NCBI GenBank assembly: GCA_017557535.1 | Contig: JAFYYM010000058.1 | Span: forward strand, 1-39,147 | Direction: 5' to 3' | Length of the DNA stretch: 39,147 nt | From: Bacteroidales bacterium | GTDB lineage: Bacteria > Bacteroidota > Bacteroidia > Bacteroidales > UBA932 | Part shown: in pieces, positions 1,743 to 37,444 of the stretch | Layout: each line of letters opens with the position of its first letter | Position numbering within the stretch: position 1 is the first letter of the stretch | Notes under the pieces: model-generated | What the model was told of the DNA's origin: nothing | Databases searched by the model: none | Seen by the model: the letters and a program-made list of their open reading frames with translations, nothing else | Position numbers and translations under genes: made by a program

Positions 1743-3059
1743 TTAATATCCATTAACCTCTCCAACTCGAGAGGCTTCACCATGATGATTCACTAATTCG
1801 TTATATAGCCGGGAAAACTGCTCTCCCACCAATGCGGGAGAATACCTATCCAGTACCTTCTGCCTTGCATTATGAGATAATCTGTCATCCGAATTGTTTT
1901 CCAAGCACCAAAGGATTCCATCCGCCAAATCCATCGGGTCGTAAGGATCAGCTAAGTAGCCATTCACCTGATGGTCCACCACATCCTGAATCCCCGTACA
2001 CCGGAATGCAACGACGGGAGTTCCACAGGCCAATGCTTCAGAGGCCGTCTGGCCGAAAACTTCGCTCATGGAAGGGACAACGGCTGCACTTGATAGGTTG
2101 TACAAGGAAACCAGTTCTTCCGCCTTTCCGATAAAACCCAGATAATGGACCCGCATCTTGACGTCCATCTGCAAATCCGATTCATTGGCGCCGAAGACCA
2201 ACAGCTCAACGTCAGACATCGAGTCCTCTATCTTCTTCAAGGCAGAAAGCAGAAAAGAAAAACCTTTGTTTCTGTCCTTCACCGCATTCATGGCTCCAAA
2301 GATGAGATATCGTTTCTTTTCAGCTTGGAGCGCCTTCCACCGGGGAGAAATCTCCGATTCCGAGAGAGGACGAAACACGTTCACATCAAGGCAGTTCGGG
2401 ATAACCCGGATGTCATAGCCTTTAAACAAAGCACTCCCGCGTGCGCATTCCGCCAGCCAGTTGCTCGGGGTCACGATATGCAGGTTCAAATCATTGTAGA
2501 GTTTCTGCTTTTTCAACCATACCCGATGACTCAAATCCTGAAGGTCATCCGACCCCAGCTGTGGGCAACAGCCGCATCCCGTCTCGTAACGGTGGCAGTC
2601 CATCGGCACATGACAGACACCGCAGAAAGGCCAGCTGTCGTGAAGTGTCCATACTATGGGCTTGTCTTTGGGCAATTTATCCAAAGGAAGGAAGCGGAGG
2701 TTCACCCAATGGAGGTGAAGGACATCGTAATCAATCTTTTGAAGAGCCTCGCTAATATCCGTAGAACGAAGGTCCGACATAAAATAGGGCCCCTTGTTCG
2801 GGTACTTTCCCCACTGGTAGTGCTGCCACTTGTTCTTCACCTTGTTCCGCACCAAATCAAAGGTACGGTATAAGGCATTGTGGGGTAGGAAATCACTGAC
2901 TGGTAGGACGTTTTCATCCGCCGTTCCCTTGTTCTTGACAAACATCCTGCTGTCGATTCCGCACTTCCGAACGGCCAAATGAATCCGGTAGGCGGCGCGA
3001 GCGGCGCCGCCCGAGGAATCGGATGTACAGACAGATAGAACGCGAATCTTATCGCCCAT
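1743..3059 (-). CDS. Glycosyltransferase family 4 (GT-B fold)
   Basis: A 438-residue cytoplasmic glycosyltransferase. The N-terminal GT-B domain begins IRVLSVCTSDSSGGAARAAYR, with the Gly-rich acceptor loop. The C-terminal domain carries the EX7E motif (EVFGQTASE) inside PSMSEVFGQTASEALACGTPVV, which binds the sugar nucleotide in GT4 retaining enzymes. The N-terminal middle part has a cysteine-rich patch (CGVCHVPMDC then CGCCPQ), as in WcoF-like capsule transferases of Bacteroidetes. It should add one sugar of the repeat unit; donor and acceptor cannot be read from sequence. The start overlaps the upstream gene by 11 bases. Confidence 0.9.
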   Translation of the reverse strand: MGDKIRVLSVCTSDSSGGAARAAYRIHLAVRKCGIDSRMFVKNKGTADENVLPVSDFLPHNALYRTFDLVRNKVKNKWQHYQWGKYPNKGPYFMSDLRSTDISEALQKIDYDVLHLHWVNLRFLPLDKLPKDKPIVWTLHDSWPFCGVCHVPMDCHRYETGCGCCPQLGSDDLQDLSHRVWLKKQKLYNDLNLHIVTPSNWLAECARGSALFKGYDIRVIPNCLDVNVFRPLSESEISPRWKALQAEKKRYLIFGAMNAVKDRNKGFSFLLSALKKIEDSMSDVELLVFGANESDLQMDVKMRVHYLGFIGKAEELVSLYNLSSAAVVPSMSEVFGQTASEALACGTPVVAFRCTGIQDVVDHQVNGYLADPYDPMDLADGILWCLENNSDDRLSHNARQKVLDRYSPALVGEQFSRLYNELVNHHGEASRVGEVNGY

Positions 3060-4014
3060 GCTTCAATCTCTTGTAGGCTTTCAGCGCCCCATTGAGTGCG
3101 CCGCGGTCATACATCATCGACTTATAGATGCGGGAAACGATATCCTTTGTGGAACCTCTCGAATGAGACTTGGCAAAACATACGTAATCCCGGTGAGTAT
3201 CCACCTTCATCGACTCAGGATGTGTCAACGGCAGGATTCCAAAGGTAGGACGGTCTCCCATCCCGGCAACATTACTGAGGGTATGCGTCCCTTCCCCGTC
3301 GAAGCCGATGTTGCTCACCAGGTTCACCCGGGGATGGATGGTCAGGCCGCTGTTCTTGAACAGATGGATCTGCATCTGGTAATCCCAGTAGCTCTTCTTC
3401 TCCTTGTCCCGCTGGATTTCCAGCACCTTGAAGTACCACCAGTCGGCCTCCACCACGCTATACAAGAGTTTCTTGCAATGCCGGCGGAACTTCTTCGCAT
3501 CCAGAGTCAACAGGTCCAGGTCGAAACCCTTCCAGGCCCGTGCCCAGGAAGCCCAGGCGCCGGTAATCATATAATGGGAGAAATCATAGGACGCCTTGCA
3601 CTTCCACTTGTCATCATACAGCGTGCTGCTGATATACATCACTTCCGGATTGTTCCGATATCGGTCCAGCAGCTCCTCACAATAGCCGAAAAAGTCGGGG
3701 TGCGGCAGGCAATCGTCCTCCATCACGATCCCCTCCTCCACCTGGCTGAAGAACCAGCTGATGCCCGTCATCGGGCCGGCACCGCAGCCGTAGTTGACTT
3801 CCGAATAGTTCGTGTGCAGCTCGCAGTCCCAATCAACAAGATCCTTGACAACGGCGCAGACCTCGGCACATTTCTGAACGTCATTTGCATTCCCTTCCCG
3901 AGGGCCGTCACGGAAGACATACAAGGCCACCGGCCGCGCATCGCGGATGGCGGACAGCACACGACGGACGTGGTCGGGACGGTTGAAGGTGATGAGGAGG
4001 ACGGGGGGGGTCAT
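3049..4014 (-). CDS. Nucleotide-diphospho-sugar transferase-like protein (HlpA-like GT-A)
   Basis: A 321-residue GT-A type protein starting MTPPVLLITFNRPDHV. The DXD-like metal site appears to be MEDDCLPHPDFF. It resembles the family often annotated as hemolytic protein HlpA-like, in practice a GT2-related sugar transferase common in Bacteroidetes polysaccharide loci. A longer in-frame start exists 26 codons upstream, but the ATG at 4014 forms an ATGA overlap with the preceding GT2 stop and puts the conserved strand at the N-terminus, so I chose it. The codons after the start contain eight consecutive C (4003-4010), a possible slippage site. The acceptor and sugar are not known. Confidence 0.82.
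   Translation of the reverse strand: MTPPVLLITFNRPDHVRRVLSAIRDARPVALYVFRDGPREGNANDVQKCAEVCAVVKDLVDWDCELHTNYSEVNYGCGAGPMTGISWFFSQVEEGIVMEDDCLPHPDFFGYCEELLDRYRNNPEVMYISSTLYDDKWKCKASYDFSHYMITGAWASWARAWKGFDLDLLTLDAKKFRRHCKKLLYSVVEADWWYFKVLEIQRDKEKKSYWDYQMQIHLFKNSGLTIHPRVNLVSNIGFDGEGTHTLSNVAGMGDRPTFGILPLTHPESMKVDTHRDYVCFAKSHSRGSTKDIVSRIYKSMMYDRGALNGALKAYKRLKHGR
4003..4010 (-). repeat. C8 mononucleotide tract directly after a start codon
   Basis: On the coding strand the sequence reads ATGACCCCCCCCGTC, so codons 2-4 of the HlpA-like transferase contain eight C in a row. Gain or loss of one base would shift the frame at once and remove the protein. Length 8 is at the low end of tracts that vary in other bacteria. 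Variation is not shown here. Confidence 0.6.
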
Positions 4015-30723: not shown

Positions 30724-32028
30724 TTACTCCTTGATGGAGGTGATCATCGTGCAGCGGCTGAGCTCCTTCATGTTGTAGAACATGTAGTCCACACCGCCCT
30801 TGTAGTCCATCACGAGCTGCTCCGGGTTCACACCGAACTCGTTGACCATGACATTGTACACGGCCTTCGCACGGTTCTCGGACAGCATGAGGTTGTGGGC
30901 CGGAGTGGCCGTCTGCTTGTCGGCGTAACCGCAGATGAGGTACTTGGTGTTCGGAGTGCTCTTGATCAGGTCAGACACAGCGTGGATGTTGATGAGCTCC
31001 TTCTTGGAGATATCCCAGCGGTCGATGATGAAGTTGATGTGGAACCAGACCTCGGGAACCTCGCGGATGATCTGGGGATCCGGAGCGGGAACAACCTCCT
31101 TGATAATCTTCTCCACGGTCTCCTTGTCGTACTGGTACACGCTGGTACGCTCGGCGAGACGCCACTTGCTGTACTCCTTGCCGATGTTCCAGGCCAGGCC
31201 GGCGGTGACGCCGAAGATGCCGTCCAGCTTGTGGTTCAGCAGCCAGTGGTTCCGGGTGGGCTCGTCCAGATAGGACTCACCATCGAAATCGTCACCGACG
31301 AGGGCGCCGCGGACGTTCAGCATGAGGCGGAGCTGCTCGGTGAGACGGAAGGTGTTGATGAGACCGGTGTTGAAGCTCGCGCTCGGAATGTTGCCGGACT
31401 TGCAGAAGCCGTAGATCAGACCACCACCGGCATAGGCATCCAGGTTGTAGAAACGATCCGGCTTGTAACCGCCGAAGATGGTGGTGATGTCGGCATGGGC
31501 CAGGGCGAAGACATCCAGGTAGCTGCCGGACTGCACGGCAAGATGCTCGGAATCATACTTGGAGTCGGCCTTGGTGTAATACTGGATGTTCTTGTCATCA
31601 CGGAAATTGGCATTGGCATCACGGTAATTATTGGAATGTCCGGGAGTAGTCTGGTACAGACCCTTGAACTTGCTCCAGTTGGCGCCGAGACCGACACCGA
31701 AACTCGGGGAAATCCACTTGGTCAGGTACAGGTCGATGGTCGGGAAGGTGAACATCTCGGGGACCTTCTTGGCGACCTTCCAGTCGTTGTCGCCGTAGTA
31801 CATCTGGGTACCGATACCGGCATCCAGCTGCCAGTTGTGCCAGAAACCGTTGGTGAACACGGAGTTCTTCTCCAGGACGGTGGTCGTGACGATGCGGCCG
31901 TTCGCGGTAGGGGTTTCCTCCACCACCGTGATGGTGTTCTCGTCCTCGGTACGGGTGACCTTGGTCTCCTGGGCGAAAGCCGGCGCCATCAGGGCGACCG
32001 CAGCAATCAGAACAAATAATTTCTTCAT
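30724..32028 (-). CDS. OmpA-family outer-membrane protein
   Basis: A 434-residue protein. MKKLFVLIAAVALMAPAFA is a Sec signal peptide with cleavage before QE. The middle part (about 60-290) alternates aromatic and polar residues as in an outer-membrane beta-barrel. The C-terminal 108 residues (327-434) are an OmpA-like peptidoglycan-binding domain, with FHINFIIDRWDISKKEL, CGYADKQT and LSENRAKAVYNVM, the last being the conserved LSxxRA motif. It anchors the outer membrane to peptidoglycan. It is a single-gene unit with a clear Bacteroidetes promoter upstream and hairpins downstream, and its regular codon use suggests strong expression. Confidence 0.93.
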   Translation of the reverse strand: MKKLFVLIAAVALMAPAFAQETKVTRTEDENTITVVEETPTANGRIVTTTVLEKNSVFTNGFWHNWQLDAGIGTQMYYGDNDWKVAKKVPEMFTFPTIDLYLTKWISPSFGVGLGANWSKFKGLYQTTPGHSNNYRDANANFRDDKNIQYYTKADSKYDSEHLAVQSGSYLDVFALAHADITTIFGGYKPDRFYNLDAYAGGGLIYGFCKSGNIPSASFNTGLINTFRLTEQLRLMLNVRGALVGDDFDGESYLDEPTRNHWLLNHKLDGIFGVTAGLAWNIGKEYSKWRLAERTSVYQYDKETVEKIIKEVVPAPDPQIIREVPEVWFHINFIIDRWDISKKELINIHAVSDLIKSTPNTKYLICGYADKQTATPAHNLMLSENRAKAVYNVMVNEFGVNPEQLVMDYKGGVDYMFYNMKELSRCTMITSIKE

Positions 32029-32070
32029 ATCGATAGAATTAAAACTTCACAAATGTGCATTCTCAGCAGG

Positions 32071-32102
32071 CAAAAATACACAACTTTTTTCGATGATGCA
32101 AG
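32071..32102 (-). promoter_or_regulatory. Bacteroidetes-type promoter for the OmpA gene
   Basis: On the minus strand CTTG (32102-32099) is followed after 20 bases by TATTTTTG (32078-32071), an exact fit to TAnnTTTG. The start site is expected near 32065, giving a leader of about 36 bases before the ATG at 32028. Confidence 0.75.
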
Positions 32103-32182
32103 TTTTTATGCAGATAGTCCTCTTATTTTGCCGATTCCCACCTGCCGCAGACCGACAGAAGGGCACCTCGGCAAACAGGAAA

Positions 32183-32229
32183 CATGCACCCATCGGCTCC
32201 GGAAAGAGTCCGGGGCGGATGGATGCATG
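32183..32229 (-). terminator. Terminator hairpin after the adhesin gene
   Basis: CATGCACCCATC (32183-32194) pairs with GATGGATGCATG (32218-32229) with one mismatch, and CCGGA/TCCGG extends the inner stem. On the minus strand a T-rich stretch (TTTCCTGTTT) follows. It sits 22 bases after the adhesin stop codon, so it should end the surface-protein operon. Confidence 0.75.
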
Positions 32230-32250
32230 TCATGTCGATGGTATGAACCA

Positions 32251-35200
32251 CTAATTCGCCTTCAGCTCGTTCACCTTCAGTTCTTCGTCGTGCAGCGGAG
32301 CCGTACCGAGGTCCTTGTGGTCGTTCACGAATTCGTAAATCCGGTTGCCCACACCGTCATTGGTGATGTCCTGCGTCTTGACCAGCGCCGAACTCGTCTT
32401 GTTCGCGTTGTACCATGTCCAGGATATCTCCGTCACTTTATAGGTACCCTTCGGCAGGTACTTGAGCTTGGAGATGTTCCAGGCGTTGCTTCCAATCGTG
32501 GTCTTTTCGGAGTCCTCCGTGCCGAGCACGACGACATACTGCGTGGGACGATTCAGGTCGGAGCCCTGGAATTCCACCTTGTATATCGCATTCTCGCGCG
32601 GCTTCAGGCCGGCGCGCCGGATCTCCATCACACCGTACTCGAAACCAAGCGTCAAGGCGAGATACTTCGTGTAGAACGCCGTCTGCGGGGTAACCTTGTA
32701 GATCGGCTGGTCCGCATCGCGGGACGCGCGGTAACGGCGGATGCCATCAGAGGCAGCCTTCTGCTGTGTGCCCAAGTTATACCGGCTATCATTGACCTGA
32801 TAGTCCTCCCACCATTCCAACGTGGCGCCCGGAAGGGAATAGCCACCCAGGTCCATGTTGTTCACGTTCGGGAAGTTGATGTAGGTTGTGCCCTCGCCGT
32901 CCGCATAGATATCATCCGCGCCCGTGCCGGCTATGTTGTCATAGAAGCCCAGAGAGCTGCTCGTCCCCGTGAAGGTCAACGTGGTCTTCGCGTCAGTAGT
33001 CCCCTGAGCAAGGAAGACACCGCCTCCCCAGGCGCTGGCCTGGTTCCCACGGATATAACCTGTGCTGGAGGTCATCTTGTACGTGAGCTTCGCACCGCTG
33101 GCGAGATACACGCCACCACCATTACGGGCCTTGTTGTTCTCAATACTACCGCTATTGAGCGTGATCTCAGATCCGGTATTCCCATAGAAGGCGCCACCAT
33201 CATTTGATGTTGCCGTATTGTTATCGATGGTTCCGTTCGTAATCGTCACCTTGGCATTTTTGTTCAGATAAAAGGCACCACCATACTTCTTAGCCGTGTT
33301 ACGGAGGATCTTAGTATTTTCGAGGGTGACGTTCGCACCGGTCGCCATGATCGCAACCGCACCGCCGTTACCCGCTGTGGCAACACAATCCGTGATGTTC
33401 TTCTTGATCGTCACGGTGCCGCCCTTCGTATAAATGGCGCCGCCATGACCCGTGGTCGCAGTACAACTCTTGATGCCGCTGCCGCCCGTGATACTGATGG
33501 AACCACCGGAAGTATAGATGGCGCCGCCATTCTGGGCCGTACAGTTCTCGATGCTGCCGCCGGTGATGTTGACAACCGCTCCGGTATCGTCAATCCATAC
33601 GGCGCCGCCATCCTGCTTCACCAACTTATAATCGGTACTGTTGATGCTGCTGTTGTGGATCTTGCCGCCGCTCATCGTGAAAGTGCAAGCCTGGGAGCCA
33701 CCCTTCGCCATGATGAACTGCGCTTGAATATCCGTACTGGCACCGGAAATCGTGGCCTTCGCATAGCCGATCTTTCCACCGTGCGTGCTGTTATTCGAGC
33801 CACCGCCCACGGAACCGGCCATGAGCTTTCCTCCGGACATGGTGAAGGTACAGGTACCTCCGTCGCCGTTCCCGAAACCATGACCACCGTCACCACCGAC
33901 GCCACCGCCGATGGATGAACCATAAGGAATGGTGACACCATTCTGTGAGCCAGAGATACTCTTTGCCTTCACATCAGCACTACCGGAAATCTTTATGACA
34001 GCATTGCCGCCGTCTCCCATGGCACTGCCTCCACCGCCGATGGCAACGCCGCCGACACTTTGCGCATAGACGGTACCGCCGGAAATAGTAACGGTGGTCT
34101 CCTTGCACTTCTTTTCGAACGAACTTCCACCCCCGATGGCAGCTGCGGGGACGAACTTATTGCCTTGACCGACAGGGTAATCCCTGACGATACCGTGGTT
34201 GTAGGCATATACTTCTCCACCCGAGATCGTCACACTGGCCTGCCCGCCATAATCGGTCCATCCGATGCCGCCGCCGATAGCCGTGCCGGTCGATGAGGTC
34301 ACGGCCGTCACACTGCCGCCGGTAATCGTAACAAGGCCATATCCGTTTCCGCCGCCTCCGATAGCCGAACAAACGTCAGTGGGTTCAGCACCGGCGTAAA
34401 TGGTACCACCCGTTATCTTGATACCGCGGGAGTCTTGATACCAGGGATTATCGCTGCCGCCTATGACTGCATCGTAAAAATTGTAGGTAGTCTCGTGACC
34501 GAAATAAGACGCTCCATTCGTCTTTCCGGGAGTGATATTGCCGACTACGAGCGTACCCGACTTGGATCCAGTGGAAGCCGCACTATGGAAAACGCATTGG
34601 GCTGTGGTGAAATCGTACTCAAAATTGGACGGTATGTCTCCCGAGAATTTCTTGTAGCCAACCTTATTGCCGTCCTTGTCCGTAAACGCTTTGTCGATGT
34701 TGATCCACCTGGAGCAATAGAAAACATTGCCGAACCGGTTGTCGCCCACCATATACAGATTAAGGGTCGCACCATCAGACTGGGGATAGAAAGCGAGACC
34801 GCCCGTCATCCTGTCCGGACTCTGATCCTGGTACGTGGACCAGACATTATCGATACAGACAGTATACCTTACATTACAGGCTATGATTATCCTGTAACCC
34901 GAGGAGGGATGGCCTTGAGCCGTAGCCCGGGTCTTCCAGTTGTTCAAGACGGTCGCAACATTCGCACTGCTTTGATTGACAATCGCGACAGTACCGCCGC
35001 TGGGTTTCGTCACCGGCTTTGTGGCATGCGTCAAATGGGTGGGATTGCCGTCAAAGGTGGTACCGTTAGGTACCATGACAATATACTGGAGTTTGTCGGA
35101 AGAACTACCGCCATTCGTTGTATACACCCATGTCTTGGAACTTGAATTCCAAGTGTATCCGATTGATTTGTCGGGCAAAAGAATCACGTCACCCAGGGCC

Positions 35201-35322
35201 ACGTTCCAGAAAACACAGTTGTTGTAGTTCGTCCCAGTGGGCGCCTGCGCGGCAACTCTCATCCCCCCCCCCGCCAGACAAAGCAGGGCAATCATCGCAA
35301 ATGCCGTAATCTTTATTCTCAT
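32251..35322 (-). CDS. Large secreted beta-helix surface protein (adhesin-like)
   Basis: A 1023-residue protein from the ATG at 35322 (MRIKITAFAMIALLCLAGGG, a Sec signal ending near VAAQA). Three parts follow. Residues about 300-560 hold repeats of the type ITGGTIYA...AIGGGG, rich in Gly. Residues about 570-800 hold GGAIYT/GGAFYL repeats like those of polymorphic outer-membrane proteins and parallel beta-helices. Residues about 905-1005 look like a CnaB-type beta-sandwich (LPKGTYKVTEISW). No lipobox, LPXTG or clear type IX secretion signal is seen. It follows the fimbrillin gene by 46 bases. Ten G on the coding strand lie in the signal region, so its frame may be phase-variable. Longer upstream ATGs overlap the fimbrillin gene and were rejected. 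Confidence 0.85.
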   Translation of the reverse strand: MRIKITAFAMIALLCLAGGGMRVAAQAPTGTNYNNCVFWNVALGDVILLPDKSIGYTWNSSSKTWVYTTNGGSSSDKLQYIVMVPNGTTFDGNPTHLTHATKPVTKPSGGTVAIVNQSSANVATVLNNWKTRATAQGHPSSGYRIIIACNVRYTVCIDNVWSTYQDQSPDRMTGGLAFYPQSDGATLNLYMVGDNRFGNVFYCSRWINIDKAFTDKDGNKVGYKKFSGDIPSNFEYDFTTAQCVFHSAASTGSKSGTLVVGNITPGKTNGASYFGHETTYNFYDAVIGGSDNPWYQDSRGIKITGGTIYAGAEPTDVCSAIGGGGNGYGLVTITGGSVTAVTSSTGTAIGGGIGWTDYGGQASVTISGGEVYAYNHGIVRDYPVGQGNKFVPAAAIGGGSSFEKKCKETTVTISGGTVYAQSVGGVAIGGGGSAMGDGGNAVIKISGSADVKAKSISGSQNGVTIPYGSSIGGGVGGDGGHGFGNGDGGTCTFTMSGGKLMAGSVGGGSNNSTHGGKIGYAKATISGASTDIQAQFIMAKGGSQACTFTMSGGKIHNSSINSTDYKLVKQDGGAVWIDDTGAVVNITGGSIENCTAQNGGAIYTSGGSISITGGSGIKSCTATTGHGGAIYTKGGTVTIKKNITDCVATAGNGGAVAIMATGANVTLENTKILRNTAKKYGGAFYLNKNAKVTITNGTIDNNTATSNDGGAFYGNTGSEITLNSGSIENNKARNGGGVYLASGAKLTYKMTSSTGYIRGNQASAWGGGVFLAQGTTDAKTTLTFTGTSSSLGFYDNIAGTGADDIYADGEGTTYINFPNVNNMDLGGYSLPGATLEWWEDYQVNDSRYNLGTQQKAASDGIRRYRASRDADQPIYKVTPQTAFYTKYLALTLGFEYGVMEIRRAGLKPRENAIYKVEFQGSDLNRPTQYVVVLGTEDSEKTTIGSNAWNISKLKYLPKGTYKVTEISWTWYNANKTSSALVKTQDITNDGVGNRIYEFVNDHKDLGTAPLHDEELKVNELKAN
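35263..35272 (-). repeat. G10 mononucleotide tract in the adhesin signal-peptide region
   Basis: The plus strand has ten C in a row, so the coding strand reads GC then G10 then ATG (residues Ala17-Gly20, Met21). The present length keeps the signal peptide and the whole 1023-codon gene in frame; a change of one or two G would cut the product to a short peptide. Poly-G tracts of this length are typical contingency loci in Campylobacter and Neisseria. Confidence 0.8.
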
Positions 35323-35368
35323 CGTTCGTATGATTATCATCCGTAAAGACTCGTTCACACAGGCCCGT

Positions 35369-36976
35369 CTAGTCAACATAGTGGCTAATCGGCCATCCAT
35401 AGGTACTTCCCATCTCCGCCTTCTTGGAGGCGTCGAAACCTTGGACCAGCAGGGTCATCTGCAGGTGGTCGATGTCCGGAATCGTGGACGGAGGGGCAGG
35501 GGACGTAAACTTGGTGAACAAGGTAACCGAGGTGTTGGGCGCCATCTTGTGCTTATAGTAGTAGAAACCATCGCTGTCGTAAACCCAATCGGTATTGACT
35601 CCCTCAAAGTTGGAATCACCCGCGATGTTGTCAACCTCATAAGGATAGATGATGGTACCGTCTGCCTTCACCCAGTTCGCGATGATGGCCACGCGGACAT
35701 AGACCGGATCGCCGTATTTCGTATTGGTGACCTTGGCATTGGTCTTCACCTTACCGCTGACCTGGTCGGTGATTTCCACATCCACCAACTCACCCTGCTT
35801 CACGGAATTCACACTGATGGTGATGATCTTGCCGGCATAGCCGCTCCAGTCCTTCAGCTTGTTGTCGATGGGATTGCCGCTTCCGTCCGTGGTATTGGTC
35901 AGGACCACGGTAAGGGGATGGATACGTTCCTTGACCTTGATCTCAAGGGTGGCGCCGGTAGCAAGGACCTGGGGAATCATCATGAAGGTACGGGAGCCAT
36001 CCGAGGAAGCATCCAGGGAGGCGCCGGTCACGGTATGCTGGGTAGGATCCTGGGAGGCATCGGTGCTCTTCAATTCCTTATTGAAAGACTGGACATAGTC
36101 CTTCGTCGTCCCGCTGGTCGTCCAGGTGAAGTTCAGTTTGTCCCCGTATGTCGTCGCATTCCCGTGCACGGTCGCACCCTCGGTCAGGGTCGCCGTCGCG
36201 CTGCCGGCACCATAGAAACCTTTCAGGGCAATGGTCTCGATGGTACAGTCGTCGATGTTGCCGCGGGTGAAGCGGACAGCCACCAGGGCGTGGTTGAACT
36301 GGATATCCGCATAACGCTTGCCGTCTGAGGCCTTGACTCGGTCATTCTCATTCTGCGGGTCCATCGCGAACAGGATGTCCGGCTGGTTCATCGCATCGGA
36401 GTAATTACCGCTTGCATCGGCTCCGGCAGGAGCGGGAAGCGAATAATTGAAAGACAGGCTCGCTCCGTTATGCCAGTTGATGTTGGTCAGACCCGTGACT
36501 CCGGTAGGGGCATACGAACAGAACGTAATGTCGGAGCCGTCGGACGGCCAGTGATACAAACCATCCACGAGCTCCCAATCACCGCTCGTCTGGTAACGGA
36601 CAGTGACGTTGGCCATGGAAAGGCCGGTCTCGTCGACATACGTAGCACCATCCTTGTAAACCGAGGTCGGGAAACTGCCCAGGCGGGTGCCGATGTTCGC
36701 GTTCGTGATCGCGGCACCGCGGGTTTCCAGCTCGAACTCATCCATGTCGCTGATGAAAGCGTTCACTACCACGGAATCCCCGTTGTCCAGAATGGCAGGC
36801 ACCGAGAACAACAGCTCCTGGGGCGATGCCTCTTCGGCAGAGCGGGTCTGAGAAGATTCATTGACCCGAACAAGAATCACATCGCGGTCGTCGGACGTGG
36901 AAACCTTCTTGTCGCGCTGGCAGGAGGCGATGCACCCAAGTGCAATGACACCTATAATAATATAATTAAGTTTCAT
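35369..36976 (-). CDS. Fimbrillin-family lipoprotein (Mfa-like)
   Basis: A 535-residue lipoprotein. MKLNYIIIGVIALGCIASC is a type II signal with Cys19 as the lipid site. Family marks of the Bacteroidetes fimbrillin/Mfa group are the two beta-sandwich domains, VPAILDNGDSVVVNAFISD near the N-terminus, YHWPSDGSDITFCSYAP (about 125-145; the W-P-x-D block found in most fimbrillins), IQFNHALVAVRF (about 230) and FMMIPQVLATGATLEI (about 330). The ATG at 36976 was chosen over 37006 because only it starts a signal peptide. It follows a 55-codon gene by 10 bases and precedes the adhesin, so the three probably build a surface structure. Confidence 0.88.
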   Translation of the reverse strand: MKLNYIIIGVIALGCIASCQRDKKVSTSDDRDVILVRVNESSQTRSAEEASPQELLFSVPAILDNGDSVVVNAFISDMDEFELETRGAAITNANIGTRLGSFPTSVYKDGATYVDETGLSMANVTVRYQTSGDWELVDGLYHWPSDGSDITFCSYAPTGVTGLTNINWHNGASLSFNYSLPAPAGADASGNYSDAMNQPDILFAMDPQNENDRVKASDGKRYADIQFNHALVAVRFTRGNIDDCTIETIALKGFYGAGSATATLTEGATVHGNATTYGDKLNFTWTTSGTTKDYVQSFNKELKSTDASQDPTQHTVTGASLDASSDGSRTFMMIPQVLATGATLEIKVKERIHPLTVVLTNTTDGSGNPIDNKLKDWSGYAGKIITISVNSVKQGELVDVEITDQVSGKVKTNAKVTNTKYGDPVYVRVAIIANWVKADGTIIYPYEVDNIAGDSNFEGVNTDWVYDSDGFYYYKHKMAPNTSVTLFTKFTSPAPPSTIPDIDHLQMTLLVQGFDASKKAEMGSTYGWPISHYVD

Positions 36977-36986
36977 AAGGCAGAGG

Positions 36987-37154
36987 CTATTTAAAGTCCG
37001 GTTCAAAATAATCGTCGCCGTCGGTAGACTGCACGGGTTCGAAATCGTACACGCCCACCGTCAACGCATCTGAATGAATGGAATTGATAAGCAACGCCTG
37101 TTCGAATTCCACGTCGACCGGCGTCAACCTCGCTTGTTCATAATGCCTTCTCAT
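36987..37154 (-). CDS. 55-residue acidic small protein at the head of the fimbrillin operon
   Basis: A short gene beginning MRRHYEQARLTPVDVEFEQALL and ending DDYFEPDFK, with no signal peptide. It starts 37154 (ATG) and stops at 36987, 10 bases before the fimbrillin ATG. Small proteins with a K/R-x-YEQP-like start and acidic Asp/Glu tail are common next to Bacteroidetes surface-protein genes, but no function is known to me. The promoter at 37281-37311 and the spacing make it the first translated gene of this operon, so it may be real rather than a chance frame. Confidence 0.7.
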   Translation of the reverse strand: MRRHYEQARLTPVDVEFEQALLINSIHSDALTVGVYDFEPVQSTDGDDYFEPDFK

Positions 37155-37280
37155 TATAAGAATCTGTATTACCCGGGTGCCCCTCCCCGGTCTTAAACTG
37201 TTGTTGCCGTGAGGCTTGCGACAACGTTTTTACTATTATATTTCTCTTTTAATCGGCCATGTTACACAATAAACCAACTG

Positions 37281-37311
37281 CAAAAATAGTCAAAAGGGGG
37301 CAAATAACAAA
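37281..37311 (-). promoter_or_regulatory. Bacteroidetes-type promoter for the fimbrillin-adhesin operon
   Basis: On the minus strand TTTG (37311-37308) is followed after 19 bases by TATTTTTG (37288-37281), a full match to the TTTG-N19-TAnnTTTG consensus. The expected start is near 37275, which leaves a leader of about 120 bases before the ATG at 37154. An imperfect stem (GTTGT...ACAAC, about 37200-37228) lies in that leader. Confidence 0.82.
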
Positions 37312-37398
37312 ATTTTTAGAACTTTTTTATACATTATTTCAATCTAAAATCCCCCCCTCCTTCCGGTAACCTTGCTTCCGCGAGGCCATAAAACGACA

Positions 37399-37444
37399 AT
37401 CCCTGCCCGCGAAGGCCATCTTTCAGGCCTTGGCGAACAGGGAT
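37399..37444 (-). terminator. Hairpin terminator after the thioredoxin-like gene
   Basis: ATCCCTG (37399-37405) pairs with CAGGGAT (37438-37444), and AAGGCC/GGCCTT forms an inner stem around an 8-base loop. On the minus strand TTGTCGTTTTA follows. It lies 24 bases after the stop codon at 37468 and before the next promoter, so it should separate the two operons. Confidence 0.68.

Follow-up and report, generated by a model that had tools for sequence, protein, structure and literature searches.

A run of ten G residues on the coding strand lies within the signal-peptide region of a gene for an exported repeat protein, here called P0001, in the 39,147-base stretch of Bacteroidales DNA that we analyzed (the window). 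The tract itself is real; that it works as a phase switch is probable rather than proven. We favor the view that it is a slipped-strand contingency locus, a translational ON/OFF switch for P0001 that would be ON in the sequenced copy. A slippage switch is the probable reading because comparable G runs occur in the export signals of nutrient receptors in some relatives of the host. Below, G-, L- and C-numbers denote genomes, fetched loci and contigs, respectively, with G000 being the window's own genome, a 3.38-Mb assembly.

Read on the + strand, the tract is a C10 and the sole G/C run of at least nine in the window, where the next-longest runs are one G8 (4003-4010) and three C7. In context it reads GC[G GGG GGG GGG] ATG, which is the last base of codon 23 plus codons 24-26 of MIIIRTMRIKITAFAMIALLCLAGGGMRVAAQA. 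Both the run and its placement in a signal peptide had been foreseen in the original prediction and are borne out. The gene, at 35340-32251 on the - strand, encodes 1029 aa from the first ATG; the 1023 codons given earlier hold for the second in-frame ATG. Judged by eye, the N-terminus, MRIKITAFAMIALLCLA-GGG-MRVAAQA, has a charged start, a hydrophobic core, the tract and an AQA cleavage site, and the predicted model of P0001 has a low-confidence helix at residues 4-22. GGG makes up only 8 of the 155 other Gly codons of P0001 (11 of 158 with the tract), so three consecutive GGG codons are not a habit of this gene.

Translation of the gene with the tract set to 8, 9, 10, 11 and 12 G gave products of 49, 26, 1029, 50 and 27 residues. 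A tract of 10 G leaves all 1029 codons readable, so that the exported protein could be made. With 9 or 12 G, translation would end at the TGA beside the tract, still inside the signal peptide, and with 8 or 11 G it would end 23-24 codons later. Gain or loss of one G thus abolishes the full product in the translated sequences, and the G10 is a long mononucleotide tract within a reading frame, as expected of a translational contingency locus. In such a switch the tract would gain or lose G during replication and cells would form an ON/OFF mixture for the P0001 surface protein, with a presumed benefit from varying that protein. We infer slippage, and its keeping by selection, because G8-G9 runs in sister species are kept near the 5´ ends of exported-protein genes, some of them frame-broken.

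Table 1. Features of the P0001 locus, with positions in the window, and run-bearing exported-protein genes of sister species, with their loci
Feature	Position or locus	Strand	Remark
P0001, 1029-aa exported protein with GGAI-type repeats and a beta-rich centre, without a known family	32251..35340	-	
Signal-peptide region with AQA site, 33 codons counted from the first of two ATGs (the second at 35322)	35242..35340	-	read by eye
G10 tract (C10 on the + strand)	35263..35272	-	last base of codon 23 to codon 26
TGA immediately after the tract; the frame meets it at 9 or 12 G but not at 10 G	35259..35261	-	by translation: 26 and 27 residues
P0002, 535-aa lipoprotein-like gene, 28 bases upstream, same direction	35369..36976	-	fimbrillin-like via its ortholog
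Small open frame of 55 codons before P0002	36987..37154	-	read by eye
Candidate Bacteroidales-type promoter: TTTTG, 19 bases, TATTTTTG	37281..37312	-	by eye against the general motif
SusC-type genes, run in or just after the signal peptide, in frame	L221, L227, L230, L243 (G031)		
SusC-type genes, run in or just after the signal peptide, in frame	L083, L091, L264, L274, L277, L280 (G091)		
SusC-type genes, run in or just after the signal peptide, in frame	L191, L197 (G101)		
SusC-type genes, frame-broken at the run	L076, L265 (G091); L146 (G076)		L146: run in the CarbopepD domain
Lipoprotein genes with a run (G091)	L085, L266, L270; L078, L082		first three in frame, last two broken

P0001 gave no match in Pfam (E 0.1), NCBIfam (E 0.01) or the PDB sequences (E <0.05). 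Its AlphaFold model, built from three sequences, has a mean pLDDT of 51, with blocks in residues 581-750 that score 71-87 and form beta strands. The gene had been called a giant beta-helix adhesin. Adhesion is a guess, as P0001 matches no Pfam or NCBIfam family; the beta-helix part agrees with the GGAI-type repeats, which we take to resemble the GGAI-like motifs of chlamydial Pmp proteins, and with the modest AlphaFold model, whose support is confined to residues 581-750. The upstream neighbor P0002 itself matches 0 Pfam families. It is 57% identical to a protein at L156 that matches Mfa_like_1 at 1e-7, and Mfa_like_1 is also matched, at 1e-22, by the lipoproteins that open related clusters in L049 and L158. 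A neighbor that is fimbrillin-like via its ortholog fits a surface role for P0001, which we read as a surface repeat protein encoded in a fimbria-like operon. Bacteroidales promoters carry TTTG at -33 and TAnnTTTG at -7, the motif against which the candidate promoter in Table 1 was picked by eye; a sigma-70 scan of 32000-37400 gave 4 sites vs 4.2 in shuffles.

How surprising the tract is depends on the frame of reference. The window is expected to hold 0.056 G/C runs of at least 10 with equal base use, in agreement with the ~0.06 of the original prediction, or 0.097 with its own base use. By the same formula, 4.8 such runs are expected in the whole assembly and 3 are present, namely that of the window and those on contigs C127 and C139. 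With about five expected and three seen, it is unsurprising that the genome has a G10 at all and the count proves nothing; the window-only figure was therefore set aside as a deciding test. The place of the tract is somewhat more surprising than its count, with 0.04 runs expected inside any signal peptide at the genome's own density, if 600 signal peptides are assumed. Base composition is also a poor null, since G000 has 29 runs of at least 7 vs ~310 from the formula (worked by hand). Its runs of exactly 6 to 11 number 274, 17, 6, 3, 2 and 1, a steep drop followed by a heavy tail, without a mode at 8-9; an excess of long runs is customary, though not required, in genomes with slipped-strand contingency loci. 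Five of the 29 runs of at least 7 fall in the window, which holds 1.2% of the genome's bases, and such a local habit of G/C runs could explain the tract, a point that counts against a switch.

The other long runs of G000 are variously placed. Those of at least 9 include one at about codon 315 of a helicase-like frame (C105, kind by eye), two between genes (C47 and C139), one 110 bases before a 135-codon frame (C102) and a G10 located 136 bases before a SusC-like frame (C127, kind by eye). Runs of 8 lie in frame in genes with Peptidase_M64/LRR_5 and PD40 domains (C68:1926 and C95:51704), while no convincing gene was found for those on C22 and C59. Another G8 (C95:63083; L250 3001-3008) falls midway along an HsdS gene (Methylase_S, E 6.5e-49), near codon 190. 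HsdS is a sort of gene that shows poly-G switching elsewhere, and this one is a possible phase-variable restriction system; its G8 stands just after a TAEL repeat. From these placements, the window's own genome offers few, suggestive cases. In the window itself, the run at 4003-4010 is a C8 on the - strand, in codons 2-4 of a frame (4014-3049, -) that begins MTPPVLLITFNRPD and by eye resembles a glycosyltransferase, with no Pfam or NCBIfam match. Slippage there would likewise break the frame.

Run lengths were counted across 101 genomes of the genus; G017 was excluded since one of its contigs begins with poly-G, and runs at other contig ends were kept. These genomes contain 1473 runs of at least 7, 680 of at least 8 and 282 of at least 9. 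Many of them have few long runs or none, with G9 present in 80 of the 101, which counts against a switch. Runs of exactly 8 outnumber those of exactly 7 in 12 of the 31 genomes having at least 8 runs of at least 8. The distribution is bimodal in G091 (93, 3, 26 and 16 G/C runs of exactly 6, 7, 8 and 9) and in G031 (55, 1, 21 and 6). An index, defined as G8 words divided by runs of at least 7, has a median of 0.67 in 63 genus genomes vs 0.37 in 164 genomes of the order's other genera (p=2e-6) and is at least 1 in 17 of the former and 20 of the latter; G000 scores 22/29=0.76. The trait is therefore neither confined to the genus nor universal within it. Runs of at least 8 are likewise in excess over runs of 7 in G518, G572, G581, G439 and G541, which belong to other genera. 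Poly-G at or near contig ends (G017:C57, G004:C61, G121:C38 and G010:C4) probably reflects sequencing artefacts, and such runs may swell the tail of the counts.

In the sister species, long runs were found in signal-peptide regions of SusC-type receptors and lipoproteins (Table 1). For 20 exported-protein genes picked by eye, the frame is intact in 15 and broken at the run in 5; G101 and G076 are represented in part, by 8 and 3 loci for 12 and 22 runs of at least 8. The broken frames count against a switch to the extent that, in unfinished assemblies, they may be errors or decay. In Pfam, both CarbopepD_reg_2 and Plug were matched in 13 of the 15 receptors, the remaining two being L274, cut short by the end of its contig (CarbopepD only), and L146, read from the 3´ frame (Plug and barrel). 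Runs in the first 45 codons of SusC-type receptors account for 4 of 27 in G031 and 8 of 43 in G091, with 0.14 and 0.2 expected on the assumption of 100 receptors per genome. Outside the 20, two genes carry runs in frame (L108 of G033 and L095 of G076), two genes of other kinds are broken (L273 of G091 and L253 of G075), three SusC-like genes have the run deeper in the gene (L234, L263 and L209), and a sigma-factor gene (L222, with a copy at L228) has a G8 at codon 14. We also noted two similar lipoprotein genes in G072 whose starts closely follow a G9 and a G10 (L124 1930 and L126 3001), as well as C9 runs near the 5´ ends of similar-looking lipoprotein genes of ~500 codons, at different positions (L017 1436-1444 in G005 and L147 3001-3009 in G080).

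The position of long runs relative to genes was scored in the fetched loci of G091 and G031 for runs with a coding frame 3´, with duplicates and runs <300 bases from a locus end excluded. Of 35 runs of at least 8, 18 began no more than 45 codons after the in-frame stop that precedes them, compared to 9 of 65 runs of 5 (Fisher p=1e-4). The figure of 18 is inflated, as a run-broken gene counts as 5´-proximal regardless of where it is broken (for example L273). By the same test, runs of 7 were early in 2 of 2 cases and runs of 6 in 0 of 3; G075, which was not pooled, gave 1/2 vs 1/9. Long runs without a coding frame 3´ made up 19 of 38 in G091, 9 of 25 in G031 and 9 of 11 in G075. A wider survey of the genus agrees in direction: among the matches listed, 34 of 112 runs of at least 9 were in called genes, 14 of these 34 within the first 40 codons, and 34 of 44 runs of 6 were in genes, 5 of these 34 early. 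We prefer the test in G091 and G031 because the survey takes the longest start for each gene and includes two runs in duplicate (L035/L118).

Some runs outside genes stand close to promoter-like words. Among 308 run sides, 17 TAnnTTTG words were found within 60 bases 3´ of the run, a raw count without a shuffled control. Four of these start 20-23 bases from the run (L090, L094, L152 and L268), one more at 20-23 bases and two others come from the probable artefact L139, and 10 are scattered. A gap of 20-23 bases would put the run at about the place of a -33 element. The intergenic runs concerned are at 3001-3009 in L090 and L152, 7002-7010 in L094 and 3001-3008 in L268, and in L241 a run at 3001-3009 lies between TTG and a TAnnTTTG word. 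All five are possible promoter-type switches.

P0001 has a match in 34 of 400 genus genomes, G000 included, and one close, near full-length relative, in G396. This ortholog is 53% identical to P0001, the gene next to it is 57% identical to P0002, and the gene order is the same. Where the window reads LCLAGGGMRVAAQ, G396 reads LFLAAGLRLSAQ, and it has no run of at least 6 near the start; the signal peptide of P0001 5´ of the tract aligns in frame with that of the ortholog. The tract is thus not conserved in the nearest ortholog and is either young or lost in G396. For the distant relatives, we found no run of at least 7 in the stretch fetched from G031 and no run of at least 6 in G227; L049 has a G6 far from the start and G206 a G6 ~45 codons from it. 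Among named genomes there were two relatives at 37% and none of the same species, a search from which near-identical records were possibly excluded, and among the viral contigs searched there were none. No second genome of the species came up in these searches or among the genus genomes.

The main rival to a switch is chance, whereby a G10 arose where Gly codons are tolerated and may slip occasionally, with functionless switching that is not kept. This we hold to be unlikely, though it deserves serious weight: the genome has no more runs of at least 10 than base composition predicts, its length spectrum has no mode at 8-9, the nearest ortholog lacks the tract and the window is locally rich in G/C runs. 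The first of these points, however, leans on a null that misses the number of runs of at least 7 roughly as 29 to 310, and chance fits poorly with a tract inside a signal peptide (0.04 expected with the assumed 600) and with the same architecture in sister species. The slippage proposed in the original prediction is partly supported. In its favor stand the run itself, its position within the signal peptide, the neat ON/OFF outcome of the translations and the G8-G9 runs in export signals of sister species; it is weakened by the ortholog without a tract and by runs of at least 10 that are not in excess by count in G000.

The G10 could instead act at a fixed length in RNA or translation, for example by tuning initiation or by marking an internal start at the ATG directly 3´. 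That ATG does immediately follow the tract, and base pairing between a G run and the 3´ end of 16S rRNA is conceivable. An internal start would, however, drop the signal peptide, and the portion of it 5´ of the tract is the one that aligns in frame with the ortholog's, making such a role very improbable. We give even less credence to an assembly or sequencing artefact that hides a different true run length. Runs do touch or nearly touch contig ends in the four genomes noted above, but the tract lies 3.9 kb inside its contig, and 10 G keeps the 1029-codon frame open across it, matching the ortholog.

A slippage switch at P0001 would have parallels in other phyla. The TonB-dependent haemoglobin receptors HmbR and HpuAB of Neisseria meningitidis are described as phase variable through poly-G (PMC3786947). 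As in the window, the poly-G is in frame and a frameshift sets ON or OFF, and TonB-dependent receptors are also targets in the sister species; in Neisseria, however, variation and phenotype have been shown, whereas the window gene is not a receptor and its host is a gut Bacteroidales bacterium. Poly-G switching is likewise reported for Campylobacter jejuni, for example at cgtB (PMC6437147), with runs of 8-9 G, a frameshift, a surface phenotype and several runs per genome, but in another phylum, mainly in glycan genes and, as described there, with switching shown by experiment. Chlamydial Pmp proteins, for which switching is hypothesized in C. pneumoniae (PMC4514472), similarly combine a repeat-rich surface protein with a G run. 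Unlike these, P0001 has no Pfam match to Pmp (0 families up to E 0.1), and an autotransporter domain was not found in it.

Within the order, the mechanism described is a different one. A review (PMC11868660) assigns repeat-driven switching to Neisseria, Campylobacter, Helicobacter and Treponema and inversion to Bacteroides, and presents gut Bacteroidales as a standard example of phase variation by DNA inversion. The SusC/SusD genes of Bacteroides fragilis, whose invertase-driven phase variation is cited in the same review, belong to the same order and the same target family as the receptors of the sister species here, yet they switch by recombinase-mediated DNA inversion as opposed to tract length. 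Slippage or poly-G switching in Bacteroidales was not found among the matches listed in the open-access literature, subscription papers and preprints being outside the scope of the search.

Collectively, these data suggest that a branch of gut Bacteroidales probably runs genome-wide slippage switches, with some tens of kept G8-G10 runs in some species, besides or instead of invertases. Such runs would sit in the export signals of lipoproteins and SusC-type receptors, within genes for sigma factors and HsdS and, between genes, near position -33, with the P0001 locus as a recent member. If this is true of outer-membrane receptors, surveys limited to invertible DNA would miss an ON/OFF layer in nutrient uptake, phage receptors and surface antigens.
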